From the NCBI GenBank assembly GCA_035495615.1, contig DATJFP010000084.1:1-55211 (forward strand): 55,211 nt of DNA. Reading direction: 5' to 3'. Positions 43,795-55,211 of the stretch are shown in pieces. The DNA is from Verrucomicrobiia bacterium. Its GTDB lineage: Bacteria > Omnitrophota > Omnitrophia > Omnitrophales > Aquincolibacteriaceae. Position 1 is the stretch's first letter. Each line of letters begins with the position of its first letter. The notes under the pieces were generated by a model. The model searched no databases, was not told the origin of the DNA, and saw only the letters and a program-made list of their open reading frames with translations. A program made the position numbers and the translations under genes.

Positions 43795-44664
43795 ATGGCT
43801 TACCATCGCCTTCTGAAACTCGAAAAAGAGCCTTTCTCGACGAGCCCGGATCCGGCATTTTTTTACCGTTCGAAACATCATCGTGCCGCGCTTGCCAATC
43901 TTCTCATCGACCTGAGACTGAAACGCGGCCTTAGCGTCGTGCTCGGCGACATCGGGACCGGCAAGACAACCCTCGGCAGGAAACTGACGCAGATGCTCCG
44001 CGAAAGAAGCGGTTTCATTTTTCATCTCATCCTCAATCCCGTTTACGCGTCCGAGGAGCTTTTTTTTGACGCGCTGTGCCGGCGCATGGGATTGCAGGTG
44101 GCCTCGCCGCACCCGACCCTCGTTGATTATTGGGAAGCGCTCGAGCATGCGCTCTTTCAAAAAGGCGTGCAGGAAAAACAAACCGTCGTCATCATCATCG
44201 ACGAAGCGCACAAGCTAACGCCGTCTTCGCTGGAAGCGCTCCGCGTGCTCCTCAATTACGAGACCAACGACACCAAGCTGCTCCAGCTCATCCTGCTCGG
44301 CCAGATGGAACTTCTGCCGCTCATTCAAAGCATGCCGAATCTCAATGACCGCATCAGCCTCAAATATGTGCTGAAGCCGTTGTCTGAGGAAGAGACAAGG
44401 CAGATGATCGATTTTCGCCTTAAAGAAGCCGGGTATCATTCCCGCTCGCCCTTGTTTCACGAGGGCGCAATCCGGGCCATCCACGAGTATACCGGCGGTT
44501 ATCCGCGCAAGATTTCGCTGCTCTGCCACAAAGCCCTGCGTACCATGATCTTGAAGGGCCGCGGGATCGTGGACCTGGAAACGATCGAAGACTTGACACG
44601 CGAAGAAAGGGAAATCGGATGGGGGCCGGCGACGACATCCCCGAAGAACGTTTACTGCGTCTGA
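43795..44664 (+). CDS. GspA/ExeA-type AAA ATPase
   Basis: A 289-residue ATPase like the N-terminal domain of ExeA/GspA, the inner-membrane or peptidoglycan-remodelling factor that helps assemble type II secretins. It has the LLKLEKEPFSTSPDPAFFY opening of the family, Walker A GDIGTGKTT (residues 51-59), Walker B VVIIIDEAH (131-139), and a sensor region LNDRISLKYVLKPLS. Unlike full ExeA it has no peptidoglycan-binding extension or clear membrane helix. Its end overlaps the GspB/PilP-like gene by 46 bases. Confidence 0.88.
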   Translation: MAYHRLLKLEKEPFSTSPDPAFFYRSKHHRAALANLLIDLRLKRGLSVVLGDIGTGKTTLGRKLTQMLRERSGFIFHLILNPVYASEELFFDALCRRMGLQVASPHPTLVDYWEALEHALFQKGVQEKQTVVIIIDEAHKLTPSSLEALRVLLNYETNDTKLLQLILLGQMELLPLIQSMPNLNDRISLKYVLKPLSEEETRQMIDFRLKEAGYHSRSPLFHEGAIRAIHEYTGGYPRKISLLCHKALRTMILKGRGIVDLETIEDLTREEREIGWGPATTSPKNVYCV

Positions 44665-45272
44665 TCGAAAAAGGCGAGGCAGGCGCCGTGTCTGCCGCGC
44701 CCGTGAAGATGACAGGTTGGAAAGGGGTGTTGAATCGCCTGGCTTTCCTTCAGAGGTTCGGAGTCCGCGCGCCGGACGACCGGATCCTCTTTACCCTCAA
44801 ATCCTTGTCCGGATTGGTGTGGCTCGTTCTCGCGGGGCTCGGTCTTTATTTTCTGGCCGGAGTGGTTCCGCTGCCGCTGCCGGGACGTTTCGAACACAAG
44901 CAGGCGTCGCTTGCGCCCCGGGCCGTCTCCGACGAGCCTCAGCCCGCACAGGCGCTTGCGCTCAAGCCTGAAGAATATTATTTGGAACCGCTTGGGCAGC
45001 GCAATCCTTTTACAAATCAAAGCAGCGTGACCGAGGAAGAGCCGGCCGAAGCGCCGCCCACTCCGGCCGAAGTGCTCCACGGCATGGCCGAAGGGCTTTC
45101 GGTCGTCGGGATCAACCGCGGCGCGGTTCCGGATGCCATCGTCGAAGATGTCGTGAACAAGAAGAGTTACTTTATTAAGGCCGGAGACAAGGTCAAGGAC
45201 ATGACCGTCAAGGAAATCAAGCACAATAGCGTCGTCCTTACCTATCAGGGGGAAGACATTGAAATCAGCTAA
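44619..45272 (+). CDS. GspB/PilP-like inner-membrane protein
   Basis: A 217-residue protein with an N-terminal cytoplasmic part, one membrane helix at residues about 62-84, a linker with GQRNPF (a motif seen before PilP/GspC domains), and a C-terminal beta domain (LSVVGINRGAVPDAIVEDV...IKAGDKVKDMTVKEIKHNSVVLTY). GspB and PilP link an inner-membrane ATPase complex to the secretin, and both neighbours fit: GspA-type ATPase before, secretin after. Assignment rests on the motif plus context. Confidence 0.75.
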   Translation: MGAGDDIPEERLLRLIEKGEAGAVSAAPVKMTGWKGVLNRLAFLQRFGVRAPDDRILFTLKSLSGLVWLVLAGLGLYFLAGVVPLPLPGRFEHKQASLAPRAVSDEPQPAQALALKPEEYYLEPLGQRNPFTNQSSVTEEEPAEAPPTPAEVLHGMAEGLSVVGINRGAVPDAIVEDVVNKKSYFIKAGDKVKDMTVKEIKHNSVVLTYQGEDIEIS

Positions 45273-47019
45273 GCGGCGCACGGCACGGAACCTCGGGCTC
45301 GCAGTGTTTGCTTATGCGGCGATGGCCTGCCTGGCGAGAACCGGTTTGGCCCAGGATCAGGGCTCAGTCCCGGAAGAGAAGGCGGCCCAGGAAAATGCCG
45401 CGCCGCAAAGCGCAGAGGCGCCGCTGGGGCCGGCAGGAGAAGCGGCCGCGCCTGTCGTCGGTGAAGGCATGGAACAGCTTATTTCCCTGGAGTTCCGAGG
45501 GACGGATGCCGGTGACGTTCTCAAGTATCTCGCCCAGAAGGCCAACTTGAATCTTTCGATCAGCAGCGCGGTCACCGGGCGGGTCAACCTGTTCGTGACC
45601 AACGTGCCCATCCGCGACATCTTCGACATCGTCCTGCGCAGCAACAATCTTGCGTACATTAAGAAGGGCGACTTGTACCACATCCTGACGGAAACCGAGT
45701 ATAAGGAGCTCTACGGCGAAAAATTTTCGGATACGCGCATCGTCAAGACGCTGCGGCTCCAGTATGCGGTCCCTGAAATGGCATTCAACATGATGGATGC
45801 CATCAAGAGTTCGCTCGGACGCCTGCTCATCGACGAAAACTCGGGGACAATCATGATCATGGACACTCCCGAGAAGGTTTCGGAAATGGAAAGCGCGTTG
45901 AAGGTCCTGGAACAGCGAAGCGTGGTCAAGGTTTTTGACCTCAATTACGCGAAAGCGGATGAAGTCGAAGCCAAACTGAAGGACGAATTTGAAGTGAACA
46001 AGCTCGGCAACATCAAGGCGGACCTGCGCACCAATCAGCTCATCGTCAAGACCTTCCCGGACAGGATGAACGAAGTGACCAAGATGATCCAGGCGTTCGA
46101 CCGCGTGACGCGCGAGGTTCTCATCAACGCCAAGATCGTCAAAGTCACGCTCTCGAAAGATCTCGACTCCGGCATTGACTGGAACAGCGTGTTTTCCAAC
46201 ATTGAATTCAACGGCGTCGACAAGGTCAAGGATTTCCGGCGGACGACGGACGCCACCACGCCCGGCGCGGAAATCCCGAACGTTACGCCGATCGAAATCG
46301 CGCCCAAATTGGGCCTTGATAAAAACGGGCCTCTGGGAAGCGATCAATTCGGTGAGCTGATTTTTACCACGATCAACCGGGACGGCTACGAATTGTTCCG
46401 TTACCTCAGGACGCTCGGAGAAACAAAAATTATTTCCAAGCCGCGGCTGCTTGTCACGGAATATCAGCAGGCGAGTATCCATGTCGGCACGCGCGAGGCT
46501 TATGTGACAAGCACGACGACAACCGGCACGTCGACCTCCACGACCGCGGAAGAAGTGCAGTTTATCGACGTCGGCATCAAGTTTACGGTGACGCCGCGCA
46601 TCACCAGCGACGGGTTTATCGAAATGGCGATCAAGCCGGAAGTCAGCAGCGTCGTGCGCCAGCTCGCGACGCCCAGCGGCAACAGTATTCCCATCGTTGA
46701 TACCTCGATCGCGGAAACCAAGGTCCTCGTCAAGGACGGCTCTACGGTGATCATCGGCGGCCTGCGGAAAAACGAGAAACAGAATGATGACGACCAGGTC
46801 CCTGGCCTTGCCCGCATACCCGTTTTGGGTTCGTTGTTTTTTACCCAGAAAAATGACCACCAGGATATGCAGGAACTGGTGATTTTTATTACGCCCCACA
46901 TCGTCAAAGGAGATCATCTGGTCACCGGGGACGAAACGGAAATGGGAGGAGACTGGAAGGGCCTCCAGTCGTATAATTTTGAGAACGAGCCGGACGTTGT
47001 TCTTCCCGTGACGCATTAG
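45259..47019 (+). CDS. Secretin (GspD/PilQ family outer-membrane channel)
   Basis: A 586-residue secretin. A signal-like N terminus is followed by an STN-type domain (SLEFRGTDAGDVLKYLAQKANLN, shown in part: DVLKYLAQKANLN), N1-like periplasmic domains, and the C-terminal channel with the secretin signature VKDGSTVIIGGLRKNE and PVLGSLFF, ending in LVIFITPHIV. The TTG start at 45259 overlaps the previous gene and is preceded by GGGGGAAG. It may serve type II secretion or a type IV pilus; no pilin or major assembly ATPase is in the window. Confidence 0.93.
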   Translation: MKSAKRRTARNLGLAVFAYAAMACLARTGLAQDQGSVPEEKAAQENAAPQSAEAPLGPAGEAAAPVVGEGMEQLISLEFRGTDAGDVLKYLAQKANLNLSISSAVTGRVNLFVTNVPIRDIFDIVLRSNNLAYIKKGDLYHILTETEYKELYGEKFSDTRIVKTLRLQYAVPEMAFNMMDAIKSSLGRLLIDENSGTIMIMDTPEKVSEMESALKVLEQRSVVKVFDLNYAKADEVEAKLKDEFEVNKLGNIKADLRTNQLIVKTFPDRMNEVTKMIQAFDRVTREVLINAKIVKVTLSKDLDSGIDWNSVFSNIEFNGVDKVKDFRRTTDATTPGAEIPNVTPIEIAPKLGLDKNGPLGSDQFGELIFTTINRDGYELFRYLRTLGETKIISKPRLLVTEYQQASIHVGTREAYVTSTTTTGTSTSTTAEEVQFIDVGIKFTVTPRITSDGFIEMAIKPEVSSVVRQLATPSGNSIPIVDTSIAETKVLVKDGSTVIIGGLRKNEKQNDDDQVPGLARIPVLGSLFFTQKNDHQDMQELVIFITPHIVKGDHLVTGDETEMGGDWKGLQSYNFENEPDVVLPVTH

Positions 47020-48183: not shown

Positions 48184-48921
48184 ATGAAGAAGAAAATGGG
48201 TTGGATTATGGCCGCGGCCGTTCTTGTGCTTATGGGAATCATGCCGGTGTATTTGAAGGCCCAGGAAATGAGCGCCGAAGAAAAGGCAAAGGTGCTTGAG
48301 GCGGCCAATGACGAGCTTTATAGGACGGAATGGAAAATCACGGTCCTCCCGATGTGGGGCCCTAAAGAAAGCCGGAAGCCGGTTGATGACACGCTGCGCC
48401 TCCTGGACGGAAAGCTGCATTCAAAGGCGTTTTCGCAGGAGGGGTATGCGGATTCGAACGTGTCGGTCACAGTGCAGGACGACGGGATGGTCGTGGTCGA
48501 AACCATGCAGCGCAACGATAAAAACGGAGTCGTCTTCTGGCGCGGCGAGCTTTCCCAGGGCATTTTCCGGGGTGTCATCAGCAAGCAGGTCCCGGACAAG
48601 GGGACGCTGTCTTATTCCTTTAAAGGACAGAGCTCCAAAATGATCGAGCCGACTCCGACGCCCACACCCACACCTACGCCTACGCCGGTCCCGACACCCA
48701 CGCCGTCGGTAGCCGTTTCCGCGGAAGCGCCCGCGCCCAAGGAACCGGACGCTGCCGTTCCGGGAACCGCTGCTCCCGAGAAGCCGGCGGAGAAAAAAGT
48801 AACCGCACCTTCTGAGGAACCTAAAGCGGCCCCGCTGGTTTCCGCGTCCGAAAAAATGAAAGCCAAGGCGGAAACTCCTGCGCCCGCGCCGAAGAAGAAA
48901 AAGAAACCGGCCGTGGCATAA
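48184..48921 (+). CDS. Secreted protein with domain A and a Pro-Thr linker
   Basis: A 245-residue exported protein I cannot name. A signal peptide (1 to about 27) is followed by a beta-rich domain (residues about 45-150, here called domain A): WKITVLPM, DDTLRLLDGKLHS, then VETMQRN and WRGEL. A clean TP repeat (157-174) and an Ala/Pro/Lys-rich tail ending KKKKKPAVA follow. Domain A is similar to the C terminus of the protein at 53219-54451. AAGGAG lies upstream of the ATG. The basic tail and PT linker suggest a wall- or membrane-spanning spacer. Confidence 0.8.
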   Translation: MKKKMGWIMAAAVLVLMGIMPVYLKAQEMSAEEKAKVLEAANDELYRTEWKITVLPMWGPKESRKPVDDTLRLLDGKLHSKAFSQEGYADSNVSVTVQDDGMVVVETMQRNDKNGVVFWRGELSQGIFRGVISKQVPDKGTLSYSFKGQSSKMIEPTPTPTPTPTPTPVPTPTPSVAVSAEAPAPKEPDAAVPGTAAPEKPAEKKVTAPSEEPKAAPLVSASEKMKAKAETPAPAPKKKKKPAVA

Positions 48922-48931
48922 CCGGAGGATC

Positions 48932-49414
48932 ATGACTTCGGGTTTTCCGGGTGTGCCGGCCCTCATGACGGAACATCGTCCTCCTTCCCGGTTGTCCGCC
49001 CGTTTTTGCGCGGCGTTTTTCGCAGCCCTTGCGGCCGTCCTTTTTTCCGTTGTCCCTCTTGTTTCCGGCCGTGATTACGCGGAAGAACAAACCCACGTCC
49101 TCAAAGGCGTCGTGACGGCCTTCCGCGAAGATTCCGTGTCCGTTTCCGAAACCGAAGACGACGAGAAAGAAGTGCGCCGTGAAACAGCTTTCGCGCTGAC
49201 ACCTGTCATCGAGTACGCCGGAATCGAAAGGTGGGACGATCTCAAGCTGGGAAACCACGTGATCGTGACCTACCGCGATAAGAGACTCATCCACGAAGGC
49301 AAAGACGAAAAGGGCGGGTCTTTTCAAGAGGCGTCGGTGATCGGGCGGGACATCATCCGCCTTGAAGTCACGGACAAGGACACAGGAAAGAAGCTGCTCA
49401 AAGCAGGCTATTAA
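48932..49414 (+). CDS. Small exported protein, domain B (copy 1)
   Basis: A 160-residue protein with an N-terminal membrane or signal segment (residues about 22-46, AAFFAALAAVLFSVVPLVSG) and a small beta domain: THVLKGVVTAFREDSVSV, TPVIEYAGIERWDDLKLGNHVIVTY. The pattern resembles the protein at 54448-54870 along its length. It follows the domain A gene by 10 bases, so A and B are paired here as they are again at 53.2-54.9 kb. Role unknown. Confidence 0.75.
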   Translation: MTSGFPGVPALMTEHRPPSRLSARFCAAFFAALAAVLFSVVPLVSGRDYAEEQTHVLKGVVTAFREDSVSVSETEDDEKEVRRETAFALTPVIEYAGIERWDDLKLGNHVIVTYRDKRLIHEGKDEKGGSFQEASVIGRDIIRLEVTDKDTGKKLLKAGY

Positions 49415-49449: not shown

Positions 49450-52400
49450 ATGAAGCCTGATGCCGCGAGACCTCTAAAAGCGTTTTTTTTTACAGCCGTG
49501 TCATTGTTCCTCCCTCTTTTTGCAAAGTCCCTCCCGGCGCTCTATGCGTATCAGATCAAGGCTGTGCATCACGTCGTCCTCCGCATGGACGTCGATGACC
49601 TCGAAATAACGGCCCCGCTCGACCAGGAAGTGGACCCCCGGAAAACATTTCTGATGACCAGCCAGGAATGGACCACCGACATCGACCCTTTCTCGAATGT
49701 GGCCAACTGTCTTCCCGTAGAGGTTTATTTCCCGGATTCCAAAACCGTCAGGGCGGTCCGCTCCATGGCGGGCAGCGCACAAATCCTCCATGTGCTTGCG
49801 GTCGAGTTTGAGAGCGGCGCCACCGTCTACCGCGGCGTCGCCACCTTTGATGCCAAGACCTACAAGAAAAACATCAAGCTGCCGTTCATCCGGCGGGACC
49901 AGGCCTTTCCTTTGGTTCAGGCGCGTCCTCTCGACCCTTCGCAGGACTCGAAAGGCTACGGCTTTTTCAAAGCCGCTTTCCAGGACGAATACACGCTTTC
50001 GATCGAGCGCAGTCAGCCCGCGAAAAACAGGGACGTCGTGAATGAGGATACCGGAGAGACCGGGCTGCTCAACGAGGCAATGCCTCCCATGCGCGTGTCC
50101 TGGCAGGCTGTCGAGATCGAGGGCTCGCGTGTGCAAAGCGGCATTGCCAGCATGGCGCATTTCGCGGCTGATACGAATGCCTATCTTCTTTCCCGGATCG
50201 AAGATCTCAGCAAGGCCTTTCTGGTTTTGGGATACACGGCCGGGGAGGGAGCCGCGGCGGATTCACTGAGCGCGGCCCGCGGCGTGATTTCCGAACCGGA
50301 CCAGGTGAGTTTTTACCGCGGCAGCGTGGGAAGCGAGAGCGGACAGCAGGTGGATTTTTCCTGGTACGTGGTTGAGCTCCCGAACCCGGGCGATAACGTC
50401 CAGCAGGGCAGCGTCCATTTCGAGGATTTTGAAAACGAAAAAATCGTGCCTCTCGCGGACGTTCATCCGGAACTCGCGCTTGCCATGGTCACCGCCTCGG
50501 TGGCGCCCGGGGATTCCGGAGAAACGGACACGCTGTCGCGGGGCGAAGGCCGTTTTGCCGCGGAAATTCAGGATTCCGGAAAGCTTCGGATCACGCGCGG
50601 CCTCAATTTCCATGCTTCCGCCGCCGACGTCAACTGGCAGGTGGTGGATTTCGCGCCGCTTTCCTTCGAAGAGCCTGCCGAAGGAGCGGTGTGGACCGTG
50701 GGTGAAAAAAACACGGTCCGGTGGAAACATGCGCGCACTCTCCTGCGCGGGGGAAGCGGTGAAGACGGCGTTCACCTGGTCAATTTGTCCTTGTCGTTGG
50801 ACGGCGGAGCGGACGGATACCGTCACAAGATTGCCTCCGGTCTTCCCGCCTCGGCAGACCAGTATCCATGGACGCTGCCGGAAGAAATAGGCGGCAAGAA
50901 TCCCATCGGATTGCAGCTGAAGTTCCGCCTCGAGGACAAAAACGAATCCGTGCGCAATACCGCGTTTTCGGGAACGTTTGCGGCAAAGGGCCTGCTCGAC
51001 CTGACCGCGCCGGACGGAGGCGAGACCTGGTATGCCGGAGAGCAGGATTACAAAATCACGTGGAAATTTCAGGGGAAAATCGGAAACGTGGCTTTGTATT
51101 ACGACAAGAGCGGGGTTGCCGGCGAAGGCGCTTTTCCCGAGGACAACAAACTTGCCGTGGTTCCCGCGGGCAGCGGCGGCCTTGGTTTTTATTTGTGGCG
51201 GCCGGACCCGCGGATGAACGCGCGTGAAATGCGCATCCAAATCCGGCAGGAGGGCGAAGGCGGTGCTTCCGACATTTCGAAGAACTCCTTTTCCGTGATT
51301 CCGCGCGTCGAAATCATCGATCCGGTCTGGGGTAATGAAACCTGGCAGGCGGGAACGGACCAGATGATCCGGTGGAAAACCACGGCCATTCTGGACAAGG
51401 TGAATCTCTCTTACGCGAAAGCAGGAACCGAAGACTGGGTGCCCCTTGCCAAAGAAATTCCCGCGCCAACCCCGGGCGAAGGGGCCTTTCGTTGGAAAGT
51501 TCCGGACGAAACCGCGGGGCAGGACATCCGCTTCAAGATCGCGAAGGCGGATGACCCAACGATTTTTGATACGTCGCCGGACGTGGGCAAAGAGGCTGTC
51601 GCGGTTTTGCCGTGGGTGCGGTTTGCCGAAGAGCCGCCGGCAGGCAGGCTGTGGCACGTGGGCGAAACGCTCAAATTTTCCTGGGCGAGCGGCGGCAAGA
51701 CCGAAGTTTTCCGGCTGGCTTATTTGCGGCCGGGAAATACGGCATGGGAAGACATCGCTTACGTCAAAGCCGGCGGTCATGCCTTTGAATGGCAAATCCC
51801 TGACTTGATCGGCTCCGGACTTCAAATCCGCATCGAAGACGTCAATGCCCCGGCCGTTTCCGATGTCCTGAAAACCCCGCTCGAAATCGCGGCGAGCCTT
51901 CATCTCAAAAGCCCCGCGGGAGGAGAAAACTGGATACGCGGCCAGGCGCCCCCCGAAATCACGTGGGACTGCGGCGGCAGCGTGGGCAATGTTTCGCTGT
52001 ACTATCTCCTTGCCCAGGCGGACGGCAGTGAACAAGAGGAGCGCATTGCCAAGGAGGTGCCATGCACCACGGGCAAATGGAACTGGACCTTGCCGGACAA
52101 GACTTCCAAAAGCGTCCGGATCAAGATCCAGCAGGAAGCGGACGAGCGCGTTTACGACATCTCAAAACCGCTGGCGATCAGGCCCGGCTTGACGTTTTCC
52201 GAGCCCCATGCGGAGACCCAGATTTTTTATGGCGGCCGTCCGGCCGAGATCGCTTGGCGTTCCTCGGGCACTGTCCCGGTTTACGGTTTGTCCTATGCCC
52301 TGCAGGGAATCCCGGGATGGATTCCCGCCGACGAACACATCGGCGGCGGGCCCGAAGGGGAGTATCACTATTCCTGGACCGTGCCGGGCTCGCTTCTGGG

Positions 52401-52776
52401 AAAACGCGTCATTTTGAAAATCGAAGATGTGAAGCAGCCGGAGGTGTCGGTCTCCACGGCGGAAACGGGGATCCCTGTCGAATCGTGGATCGAGCTTTTA
52501 CCGATGGATACCGCGCGGGCCTACCGCCCCGGGGAAAGCGTTATGCTCCGCTGGAGTGCTGCCCAGGACGTTTCCTTTATAAGGCTGCAATACAGCGCCG
52601 ATCAGGGCCAGGGATGGACCGACCTTGCCGTTCTCCAGAGGGAAGCCGGCAGTTACGAATGGCATCTGCCCAGTCCGGGAGACCAGGCCCTTCAGGTCAG
52701 GATTGCAGACCTGAAACGGCCGGAAATGCAGGCGGTTTCCGGCATTCTAAGGACCGTCAAAGAAGAAAAGGCTTAG
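49450..52776 (+). CDS. Large exported beta-repeat surface protein
   Basis: A 1108-residue protein with an N-terminal signal segment (residues about 13-32). About residues 120-400 contain three repeats ending in a W-x-V-V/E-F/L pattern (VSWQAVEIEG, FSWYVVEL, VNWQVVDF). From about residue 404 seven repeats of roughly 95-105 residues follow, starting near 404, 516, 621, 724, 818, 915 and 1014, with the pattern P-x-G-G-E-x-W-x-x-G...W and a Y/F-x-W-x-x-P end. These look like Ig-like or Kre9/KNH-type (PF10342) modules seen in bacterial surface proteins. No sorting signal was found at the C terminus. Confidence 0.8.
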   Translation: MKPDAARPLKAFFFTAVSLFLPLFAKSLPALYAYQIKAVHHVVLRMDVDDLEITAPLDQEVDPRKTFLMTSQEWTTDIDPFSNVANCLPVEVYFPDSKTVRAVRSMAGSAQILHVLAVEFESGATVYRGVATFDAKTYKKNIKLPFIRRDQAFPLVQARPLDPSQDSKGYGFFKAAFQDEYTLSIERSQPAKNRDVVNEDTGETGLLNEAMPPMRVSWQAVEIEGSRVQSGIASMAHFAADTNAYLLSRIEDLSKAFLVLGYTAGEGAAADSLSAARGVISEPDQVSFYRGSVGSESGQQVDFSWYVVELPNPGDNVQQGSVHFEDFENEKIVPLADVHPELALAMVTASVAPGDSGETDTLSRGEGRFAAEIQDSGKLRITRGLNFHASAADVNWQVVDFAPLSFEEPAEGAVWTVGEKNTVRWKHARTLLRGGSGEDGVHLVNLSLSLDGGADGYRHKIASGLPASADQYPWTLPEEIGGKNPIGLQLKFRLEDKNESVRNTAFSGTFAAKGLLDLTAPDGGETWYAGEQDYKITWKFQGKIGNVALYYDKSGVAGEGAFPEDNKLAVVPAGSGGLGFYLWRPDPRMNAREMRIQIRQEGEGGASDISKNSFSVIPRVEIIDPVWGNETWQAGTDQMIRWKTTAILDKVNLSYAKAGTEDWVPLAKEIPAPTPGEGAFRWKVPDETAGQDIRFKIAKADDPTIFDTSPDVGKEAVAVLPWVRFAEEPPAGRLWHVGETLKFSWASGGKTEVFRLAYLRPGNTAWEDIAYVKAGGHAFEWQIPDLIGSGLQIRIEDVNAPAVSDVLKTPLEIAASLHLKSPAGGENWIRGQAPPEITWDCGGSVGNVSLYYLLAQADGSEQEERIAKEVPCTTGKWNWTLPDKTSKSVRIKIQQEADERVYDISKPLAIRPGLTFSEPHAETQIFYGGRPAEIAWRSSGTVPVYGLSYALQGIPGWIPADEHIGGGPEGEYHYSWTVPGSLLGKRVILKIEDVKQPEVSVSTAETGIPVESWIELLPMDTARAYRPGESVMLRWSAAQDVSFIRLQYSADQGQGWTDLAVLQREAGSYEWHLPSPGDQALQVRIADLKRPEMQAVSGILRTVKEEKA

Positions 52777-52865: not shown

Positions 52866-52945
52866 TGAACTGAAAAAGGCAAACTATCCGTAAGGGTAGG
52901 ACGCAAAGCCATGGGCCCTATGAGGGTCGCCAGGCCGCCAGTCGA
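52866..52945 (+). ncRNA. Cyclic-dinucleotide riboswitch aptamer (GEMM-I / c-di-GMP-I class)
   Basis: The conserved core is readable: AAGGCAAACTATCC, a GTAA tetraloop, GGGTAGGACGCAAAGCC, then a second arm ATGGGCCCTATGAGGGTCGCC-AGGCCGCC that closes with the first. This matches the layout of the c-di-GMP-I riboswitch (GGCAAAC stem, GNRA tetraloop, GGACGCAAAGCC junction, tetraloop-receptor arm, CC near the 3-prime side). ACTG (52869-52872) can pair with CAGT (52939-52942) for P1. It precedes a terminator and the Y1-fusion gene. c-di-GMP or 3',3'-cGAMP binding cannot be told apart safely by eye. Confidence 0.88.
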
Positions 52946-52964
52946 GCATTATGACGGTGTCTTC

Positions 52965-52999
52965 AAACGTCCTCCTTCTTCGGGTGGGCGTTTTTTTTT
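52965..52999 (+). terminator. Riboswitch-linked rho-independent terminator
   Basis: AAACGTCC (52965-52972) pairs with GGGCGTTT (52986-52993) as an 8-pair stem, and T bases run from 52991 to 52999. Lying 20 bases after the aptamer, it is well placed as the expression platform. CGTCC of the left arm could alternatively pair with GGACG (52899-52903) of the aptamer core. Confidence 0.75.
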
Positions 53000-53218
53000 G
53001 CCTTAAAGAGGCGGACACTATGAAAGCATTGCAGGAAGGATCCGGAGCCACAGCGTTGACTCAAAAGGATCCGTTTTTTTTGTGTCCCGCCGAAAGTGCC
53101 AGGCACCCGGGCGATTTTGCATCCCAAAAACCGGCCGGTGCCAGGCACGCTGAGGATATGGCGGTAATTTTTGACGCACAGAAGCGGTTTCCTTACTTCG
53201 CGATTCACGGAGGCATCC
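53000..53218. other. Leader region without a supported gene
   Basis: Between the riboswitch terminator and the Y1-fusion gene I see no convincing gene. It holds two GGATCC sites at 53039-53044 and 53067-53072 that could pair as a weak stem before eight T (53074 onwards), and the two GTGCCAGGCAC palindromes. An open frame across it has unusual composition and no ribosome-binding site. Confidence 0.5.
53096..53148. repeat. Two copies of palindrome GTGCCAGGCAC
   Basis: GTGCC-A-GGCAC occurs at 53096-53106 and 53138-53148, each a perfect 5-base palindrome around A, 42 bases apart. They sit in the leader between the terminator and the Y1-fusion gene. Palindromes of this type accompany REP-associated Y1 transposases in many genomes (general knowledge), which fits the gene downstream. 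Confidence 0.6.
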
Positions 53219-54451
53219 ATGCCTAGGCCTCCGCGGCTGCATGCCACCGGCGTTCTTTATTATGTGAGCCAGCAGGGCGTTCAGGACCGCCCGCTTTTCC
53301 GGAACGAGCAGGACACCGCGCATTATCTCGAACTTCTCCGCGAATATAAGGCCAAACACGGCTTCAAGCTTTTCGCCTACTCGATCGCCTCTTCCGGCAT
53401 TTCTCTTCTCGTCGAGCCGTGTTCGGAAACCACGATCTCCGAAATCATGCGGGACATTACCTCGCGCTATTCGAAGTACTACAACGCGGTCTACGGAGGT
53501 GACGGGCCTTTGTTCAAGGGGCGCTTCCGCACCTGCATCGCGGACAAGGAACAGCTTTCCCGCCTCGTGCGGTTTGTGCACAGCCAGCCGGTCTGGGCCG
53601 CGCCCGGCAGCGTCTTCGGGGACAGCCGGAACCTCTTCCTGGAGGAACAGCCGGCGGGGCATCCTTTGAAAGACGCATTGAATACGGAAATCGCGGAAAT
53701 CGAAGCGCACTTGCGCGAAATGGCCAAGCCCATGGCATCGCTTGTCGAAGTCATGGAAGCTCAGGAAATGGAAGAAGCCGCGCAGGAAGTCTCCAAGCCG
53801 TTCCTGGGTCCCGAATCTTTCGTGAAGCGCATCGCGCAGGCAGGGAAAGAGATCCATGAAAGCAAGGCGGCCGTGGGGGCGCCGACCGCTGTCCCGCCGG
53901 CACCGCTTCCCGCGGGAATTCCCTTTGCTGCCGTGCTCAAGGCTGGGGCGTTGTTGGCATTCGCCGGAGCTTTTGCGCTCGTATGGAATTCAGGGTTTCT
54001 GCGCATGCCGCATAAAGCACCGGCCGCGTCCTCGAATGTTCTTGCGGCTGCGGCCGAAGCGAAATCCGAGCCGGCCGCCGTGTCTCAAAAGGCGCAGCGT
54101 CTCGCTCTGGAAGGCAGCACCTGGGACGTCCAGATCATTCCCATGGCCAAGGAAGAACGCGCCAACATCGAGCAGGACGCCCTCATTTTCAGCGGCAACA
54201 AAGTCGAATCCCATTTCCTCGCGCAAAAAGGCTTCACGCCCACGCATTACAACCTGACGATCAACACCGACGGCGGCATTACCTGGGAGACCGTACAAAG
54301 ATCGGCCGCCGGCGAAGTCGTGTCCCTTCGCGGCGAATGGCGCGGCCGGGAAATGACGGGCGTGCTCAGCTACAGCATGGACGAGCAAGCGCACGGACAG
54401 CAGCCCAAAAACTTCAACTTCGTAGGAGTCCTGCGGGGAGGAAACTCATGA
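53219..54451 (+). CDS. Membrane protein with inactive Y1 (REP-associated transposase) domain and domain A
   Basis: A 410-residue fusion. Residues 1-125 follow the Y1 transposase/RAYT pattern (PRPPRLHATGVLYYVSQQG, GDGPLFKGRFRT, LVRFVHSQPV), and FLGPESFVKRI near 195-205 resembles the later RAYT motif. The region that should hold the HUH motif (family NHVHLL) reads SSGISLLVE at 58-66, so both histidines (positions 60 and 62) are gone. A membrane helix lies at about 236-259. Residues about 297-405 are domain A (STWDVQIIPM, DALIFSGNKVES, ETVQRS, RGEW), like the protein at 48184-48921. The ATG at 53219 has GGAGG at 5 bases. It lies downstream of the riboswitch and overlaps the next gene (ATGA). Confidence 0.82.
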   Translation: MPRPPRLHATGVLYYVSQQGVQDRPLFRNEQDTAHYLELLREYKAKHGFKLFAYSIASSGISLLVEPCSETTISEIMRDITSRYSKYYNAVYGGDGPLFKGRFRTCIADKEQLSRLVRFVHSQPVWAAPGSVFGDSRNLFLEEQPAGHPLKDALNTEIAEIEAHLREMAKPMASLVEVMEAQEMEEAAQEVSKPFLGPESFVKRIAQAGKEIHESKAAVGAPTAVPPAPLPAGIPFAAVLKAGALLAFAGAFALVWNSGFLRMPHKAPAASSNVLAAAAEAKSEPAAVSQKAQRLALEGSTWDVQIIPMAKEERANIEQDALIFSGNKVESHFLAQKGFTPTHYNLTINTDGGITWETVQRSAAGEVVSLRGEWRGREMTGVLSYSMDEQAHGQQPKNFNFVGVLRGGNS

Positions 54452-54870
54452 TCCGCATCGGCCGCAAAAAAAAGTTCACGGCATGGTTTCTGGCGGCGCT
54501 GGCCGGCATGCTTTGCGCGGCCGCGCGTCCGGCTGTTTGCGAGGAGCCGGCGCAGCAGGAACCTTTCCATGTGAAGCACGTCGAAGGCACGGTCGTGGCC
54601 AGCACCCGTTATAACCTCAGCATCGAAACCGCGAAGAAGGGCGGGATCGTCAGCGAGATGGTGCTTCCCGTGGATGAGAAAACGCAGATCCGCGGTTACG
54701 GAAGGATTTCTGACATCCGGAGAGGCGATACGATCTCCGCGCAATACAAGCAGACTTATCAGACCGACGACAAAGGCAAAGAAATCGTGACCGGCGCGAT
54801 GGCGACCGACATCAACCTGGTCCGCAGCGCAAGCTCAGGCAAGCTCGTTTCAAAGGAAAAGGCGAGATGA
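54448..54870 (+). CDS. Small exported protein, domain B (copy 2)
   Basis: A 140-residue protein with a signal segment (residues about 12-31, AWFLAALAGMLCAAARPAVC) and a beta-rich domain with VKHVEGTVVASTRYNLSI and ISDIRRGDTISAQY. It resembles the protein at 48932-49414 in order and spacing of these strands. It overlaps both the Y1-fusion gene before it and the partial gene after it by four bases, so all three are probably one translation unit controlled by the riboswitch. Confidence 0.78.
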   Translation: MIRIGRKKKFTAWFLAALAGMLCAAARPAVCEEPAQQEPFHVKHVEGTVVASTRYNLSIETAKKGGIVSEMVLPVDEKTQIRGYGRISDIRRGDTISAQYKQTYQTDDKGKEIVTGAMATDINLVRSASSGKLVSKEKAR

Positions 54871-55211
54871 GAAACGAAAGCGGACAACCTCAGAAGCGCA
54901 GGAAGTGGGACTGGAAACGGCTGGGCCGGAATGCGGTCGTGTGCGTCCTCACCTTCACGATGAACATCGTGGGCGTTCCGCTGCCTCCGCTTCCCGTGCA
55001 GGTTCCGGAAGCCGTTCAGAACTATCTCACGGACATCCTCGGCACGAAACCCGGTTATGCCTATCAGGTCAACCGTGTGCTTCGCGGCAGCACGACGCTG
55101 GCCTCGGGAGCAGAAAACGCGCAGCAAAGCCTCACCTCGCTCCTGGGCGGGGTGACGCTCAACGTGTCCAAGTCGCTTCTCATCATGTCGACGTCCACGG
55201 CGGGCAGCCGC
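54867..55211 (+). CDS. Exported protein, N-terminal part, unknown
   Basis: Only 115 codons are visible before the window ends. A basic start (MRNESGQPQKRRKWDWKR) precedes a hydrophobic stretch (AVVCVLTFTMNIVGVPLPPLP), consistent with a signal or membrane anchor. The rest is Ser/Thr-rich and small. It overlaps the upstream gene by four bases (ATGA), so it is very likely the next gene in the riboswitch-controlled operon. No family is recognised. Confidence 0.7.
   Translation, partial: MRNESGQPQKRRKWDWKRLGRNAVVCVLTFTMNIVGVPLPPLPVQVPEAVQNYLTDILGTKPGYAYQVNRVLRGSTTLASGAENAQQSLTSLLGGVTLNVSKSLLIMSTSTAGSR

Follow-up and report, generated by a model that had tools for sequence, protein, structure and literature searches.

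A RAYT-derived membrane protein, possibly an autoregulator or a nucleic-acid tether, at the head of a predicted c-di-GMP-controlled giant-protein operon in Omnitrophota

The window analyzed here (55,211 nucleotides) is the whole of contig C84 from a 3.16-Mb Omnitrophota genome of 106 contigs. Its relevant features, all on the forward strand, are the following.

43795–47019, +, secretin locus encoding an ExeA-like AAA ATPase, a GspB/GspC-like protein and a PilQ/GspD-like secretin, in the same order in relatives
48184–48921, +, stand-alone secreted paralogue of domain X, first cassette (27% identity to domain X, E 7e-11)
48932–49414, +, OB-family paralogue, first cassette (matched by the OB-family HMM at E 2.4e-7 in a search of 450 window ORFs)
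49450–52776, +, surface-type protein of 1108 aa with Ig-like repeats, first cassette (Pfam Kre9_KNH, 75 bits)
52869–52943, +, c-di-GMP-I riboswitch aptamer (best Rfam family RF03167, c-di-GMP-I-GGC)
52965–52999, +, intrinsic terminator of the expression platform (RNA folding)
53096–53106, +, REP-like hairpin, copy 1 (GAAAGTGCCAGGCAC; chance expectation 0.02 per window; also kept in the leaders of the family)
53138–53148, +, REP-like hairpin, copy 2, which can pair with copy 1
53219–54451, +, Y1/RAYT-derived membrane protein, 410 aa (Pfam Y1_Tnp, fold match and clade)
53246–53599, +, Y1/RAYT domain of this protein, residues 10–127 (structure model, fold match and catalytic-residue survey)
53927–53989, +, its predicted transmembrane helix, residues 237–257 (structure model and a hydropathy of 2.05)
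54116–54442, +, its C-terminal beta-barrel domain, termed X, residues 300–408 (weakly calycin-like fold)
54448–54870, +, secreted OB-fold protein, 140 aa (predicted structure; family kept downstream in most relatives)
54867–55211, +, start of a large surface-type protein gene, cut by the contig end (long ORFs at this place in relatives)

An earlier note on this DNA, made from its letters alone, had described a GEMM-I-type aptamer with a terminator some 20 bases further on, and had proposed a comparison with Rfam. In a search of the whole 55-kb window the aptamer provided the only Rfam matches, above the gathering threshold for both RF03167 (68.3 bits versus 59, E 4e-14) and its parent family RF01051 (63.7 bits versus 35), and an independent covariance model, R1, scored it at 63.4 bits. 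The terminator lies 21 nt beyond the aptamer end and consists of a stem (52965–52993) and a run of T residues to 52999, with a folding energy of −13.7 kcal/mol (z −4.6) that was equaled by no shuffled sequence; a U-U mismatch within the stem caused a simple terminator scan to overlook it. Of the 37 family leaders examined, 36 have a terminator after the aptamer. Pairing of the aptamer 3′ end with the 5′ arm of the terminator did not rise above that of shuffled sequences and so favors neither an ON nor an OFF switch. No promoter was found upstream by a sigma-70 consensus scan.

A guanine at the position of G20 in the Vc2 riboswitch is associated with recognition of c-di-GMP rather than cGAMP. 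The equivalent position in the window is a guanine (GGCAAAC), as it is in all 48 assessable family leaders, and from this conservation the ligand is predicted to be c-di-GMP. The threshold scores, the downstream transcription terminator and the G20 equivalent are all shared with the known c-di-GMP-I (GEMM-I) riboswitches of RF01051/RF03167, which differ in that the target here is a RAYT-derived membrane protein and in that several relatives carry hairpin inserts of ∼40 nt within the aptamer. Elsewhere in the window genome, c-di-GMP-I riboswitches also occur in tandem (L074 and L076, at 19939–20181 of contig C39 in G000).

The three genes downstream of the terminator (53219–54451, 54448–54870 and 54867 to the contig end) form an overlapping set, as the earlier note had stated, each consecutive pair being linked by an ATGA stop/start overlap. 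The product of the first gene was confirmed to join a Y1-like domain, a membrane helix and a further domain. It matches Pfam Y1_Tnp at 26.1 bits (cutoff 23), and its structure model (pLDDT 80.8) includes a well-predicted C-terminal beta domain, for which structure comparison gave a weak likeness to barrels of the lipocalin/avidin type. The best PDB match of the Y1 domain is 4er8, a RAYT bound to its REP hairpin (E 1.3e-4, probability 1.0), followed by the ISDra2 and IS608 transposases. The HUH motif of the window copy reads G-I-S, and phenylalanine stands in place of the catalytic tyrosine. Since this copy misses the cutoff of the NCBIfam RAYT model NF047646 (29.5 versus 80), its protein is classed here as RAYT-derived and not as a RAYT; a relative with intact residues (L113) passes at 82.3. 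The gene is present as a single full-length copy in the window genome and has lost its catalytic residues, whereas an IS200/IS605 insertion sequence would be mobile, with a catalytic transposase and multiple similar copies. The 140-aa product of the second gene was modeled at a pLDDT of 84.7, and its PDB matches are OB-folds.

With the paralogues of X and of the OB protein at 48184 and 48932, the window holds two cassettes of the form X, OB and large surface protein, in the second of which X is fused to the Y1 and transmembrane part. The duplication of the OB-fold gene was invisible by BLASTP and was detected by the family HMM. The secretin locus that had been noticed next to the riboswitch is indeed there, and a MerR-like regulator, an ExeA-like ATPase, a GspB/C-like protein and a secretin are found upstream in several families. 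The contig encodes another giant protein, in an ORF of 7268 aa that precedes the secretin locus (20651–42457).

In relatives, a very large ORF occurs downstream wherever the sequence past the small genes is readable. Most of these ORFs leave the readable stretch at 1300–3170 aa; one complete giant ORF encodes 4111 aa and contains Kelch, Ig-like and DUF2341 domains. By comparison, the third gene of the window belongs to a giant-protein operon cut by the contig end, a point that, like the leader hairpins described below, was missing from the earlier note. Other c-di-GMP-I riboswitches of Omnitrophota precede pilin-like and large surface-type genes, as judged by eye from the N-termini. The phylum is already known for giant ORFs, for which a role in adhesion or predation has been proposed (PMC10066038); the very large surface-type ORFs described here are of the same kind and from the same phylum. 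The main text of that paper makes no mention of a riboswitch, c-di-GMP, a secretin or a transposase.

The extent of the layout within the phylum was examined with a profile built from seven full-length members. A search of 384 genomes yielded ∼40 full-length fusions, together with relatives that carry the Y1 and transmembrane parts but no X, and these members combined with the named genomes gave 57 loci. The model R1 had been trained on 25 Omnitrophota riboswitches picked regardless of Y1 genes. At 41 of the 57 loci it found a riboswitch of at least 50 bits on the same strand, no more than 300 nt upstream of the Y1-TM gene, and at 12 more the score was weaker (20–38 bits), in several cases owing to hairpins inserted in the aptamer. 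Of the remaining four loci, one has its riboswitch 805 nt upstream, another carries it immediately past the gene, and two lack an adjacent riboswitch. In G174 (L118, 11356–11438) the riboswitch is located 3′ of the fusion gene and ahead of the next genes. With about four c-di-GMP-I riboswitches per 1.8-Mb genome, such a placement would arise by chance for far fewer than 0.1% of genes. Only one of 33 other Y1 loci (L137) had a riboswitch upstream, and the truncated protein encoded there resembles members of the family.

Several loci depart from the common form. In L164 (contig C20 of G122) two consecutive Y1-TM genes each have their own upstream riboswitch. The Omnitrophota riboswitch and Y1-fusion layout is also present on MBAA01000064 (L132), labeled Lokiarchaeota CR_4, which is probably a mis-binned Omnitrophota contig. 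Aptamer inserts of ∼40 nt or more were observed in L102, L103, L105 and L157, and also in L081, L149 and L152. The first four, from two different families, share a two-hairpin insert (TCCGCCA..TGGCGGA CTCGC..GCGAG) between GGCAAACT and P2, which accounts for their low model scores.

The earlier note had allowed that the Y1 fusion might be a one-off, and the survey instead revealed a phylum-wide clade. When 88 Y1 domains were placed on a tree, the Y1-TM fusions formed one side of a single branch (support 100/99); they span many Omnitrophota families; the window domain is the most diverged row, with an end branch of 1.11. These data bear on the view that a selfish Y1 element inserted itself into an operon under a riboswitch and has been passively carried. 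Such an origin would suit the commonness of other Y1 genes in the phylum and the 23 of 57 members in which HUH and tyrosine are intact. It is set against one clade distributed over many families with conserved gene order, transmembrane helix and leader, nearly all genomes having one full-length copy, and a reading frame that stays open despite the loss of catalytic residues. The explanation was rejected on the strength of that loss and of the single-clade tree, and we regard it as very improbable.

Catalytic residues are damaged in the other 34 of the 57 members, through at least 7 events by Fitch parsimony and 11 if losses are taken as irreversible. In all 56 testable fusions the transmembrane helix is kept, and the stand-alone Y1 relatives inspected retain both HUH and tyrosine. 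Charge bias favored neither side of the membrane, 30 of 56 proteins being positive-inside. Compared with RAYT / TnpA-REP (NF047646; 4er8), the head of the protein is of the same fold and sequence family, and in both a short hairpin repeat accompanies the gene. In contrast to those systems, the head is here fused to a transmembrane helix and a beta-barrel, the catalytic residues are damaged in the majority of members, the hairpin lacks GTAG and has its place in the leader, and the gene is under a riboswitch.

This hairpin, AAAGTGCCAGGCAC, is found in one or two copies between the terminator and the start codon. It comprises a 4-bp stem and a CAG or CAC loop, and in family leaders the motif AAAAGTGCCAGGCAC is often present twice; in one group the stem shows a double change from G-C to A-T. 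In the window, the region 53088–53160 folds with a z of −3.4. A loose, oriented form of the motif was detected in 43 of 58 leaders versus 7 of 1160 control windows, each 300 nt long, and the strict hairpin, in either orientation, in 47 of 57 leaders, being absent in ten. In eight fusion genomes (G025, G072, G116, G182, G199, G117, G151 and G193) the hairpin occurs once, in the leader, and nowhere else, and two of the four copies in the window genome are in the Y1-TM leader.

Two other accounts of the motif were discarded. It is no general companion of Y1 genes, since 19 of 20 others examined lack it in their flanks, and as a mere part of the terminator it would not be expected in leaders with unrelated terminator stems (the window and L108), which still have it. 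Some leaders have a different arrangement: in L096 (1110–1225) the motif GTGCCTGGCAC lies within the P3 loop of the riboswitch, and in L008, L010, L165 and L159 a second copy ∼250 nt upstream of the start means that the two copies bracket the riboswitch.

In one relative, G098, a stand-alone Y1 gene has the hairpin on either side, and further copies are scattered through the genome (25 in all, versus none for the reversed pattern), where they terminate a ∼55-nt repeat or form self-pairing doublets. The repeat (L187–L203) starts GTGCCAGGCACcgcrttttaa...gttacaa, and its end is common to both flanks of the Y1 gene; it is a MITE/REP-like family of this single Omnitrophota genome. Classical RAYTs are flanked by dispersed GTAG hairpins, whereas here the hairpin is largely confined to the leader, with G098 the only relative in which it is flanking and dispersed. 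The GTAG tetranucleotide, which defines classical REPs (PMC8266576), is lacking from the motif. The leader hairpin is thus what a retained REP would look like, with its GTAG missing.

The earlier suggestion of a transposase-derived effector under second-messenger control can be retained as to layout. The term effector fits less well; the evidence favors a membrane protein that binds nucleic-acid hairpins and belongs to the operon of a giant surface protein. In the mechanism that we propose, the level of c-di-GMP, acting through the riboswitch and terminator, would set the entry of RNA polymerase into the operon. The first gene encodes a domesticated RAYT joined to a membrane helix and, in most cases, to a beta-barrel domain that would lie across the membrane. 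Its RAYT-derived head has often lost the residues of the nuclease but has most likely kept the ability to bind the REP-like hairpins of the leader. The protein may thereby act as a membrane-bound one-component autoregulator with a ToxR-like layout (nucleic-acid-binding head, membrane helix and outer sensor domain), or it may hold its own mRNA or DNA at the membrane near the export machine; the giant surface protein would be of the adhesion type. We consider that a domesticated RAYT of this kind, autoregulator or mRNA/DNA tether, heading a c-di-GMP-controlled giant-protein operon next to a secretin machine, has close to an even chance of being correct.

Membrane one-component regulators of the ToxR/CadC type combine a nucleic-acid-binding head, a single transmembrane helix and an outer domain. 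The likeness is one of layout only: the head is here a RAYT in place of a winged helix, and no sequence relation is claimed.

A narrower form of the same explanation dispenses with feedback and has the Y1 head, bound to the hairpin in the 5′ untranslated region of its own mRNA, anchor this long transcript at the membrane so that the giant protein is exported as it is translated. The position of the motif downstream of the terminator, and hence in every full-length transcript, is consistent with this form, as are its folding as RNA (z −2.8 for a single copy and −6.3 for a doublet from a relative), the universal transmembrane helix and the giant product encoded downstream. Known RAYTs, on the other hand, bind single-stranded DNA hairpins, and RNA binding is undocumented in the RAYT literature examined. 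We judge this narrower form improbable.

A more serious competitor, although still rather unlikely, supposes that the RAYT domain has lost its binding of nucleic acid. It would have become a structural dimer platform in the membrane that takes part in exporting or anchoring the giant protein, and the hairpin would be the site of another factor or an element of RNA stability. The repeated decay of catalytic residues agrees with such a role, as do the marked divergence of the window domain, the occurrence of X and OB parts as secreted stand-alone proteins, and the adjoining secretin locus. Yet across the phylum the leader of the Y1 gene retains the hairpin, which is found mostly at that place and is shared with a stand-alone Y1 element; such a pattern would be hard to explain for a head that ignores the hairpin.

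Regulation of very large surface adhesins by c-di-GMP is known, for example for FrhA and CraA of Vibrio (PMC6890996). There, control is exerted through c-di-GMP-binding proteins and LapD/LapG (PMC6890996), whereas the Omnitrophota operon is headed by a cis riboswitch and a RAYT-derived protein. Among the papers examined, none was found that combines RAYT and riboswitch. The layout as a whole could be new; each part alone is of a known kind, and if only the parts are considered it would be a variant. Tentatively, and with somewhat more doubt than belief, we suggest that a catalytically dead REP transposase has become the head of a membrane regulator or mRNA tether that reads the hairpin of its own leader downstream of a c-di-GMP riboswitch, which would place a giant protein under both second-messenger and hairpin feedback control.

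If true, this would provide a clear example, extending across the phylum, of host machinery made from a RAYT-REP pair, in which protein and hairpin were kept while the nuclease residues were lost many times. Control of the Omnitrophota giant proteins is not described in PMC10066038, and the operon would tie c-di-GMP signaling to these proteins, which are thought to mediate attachment or predation.
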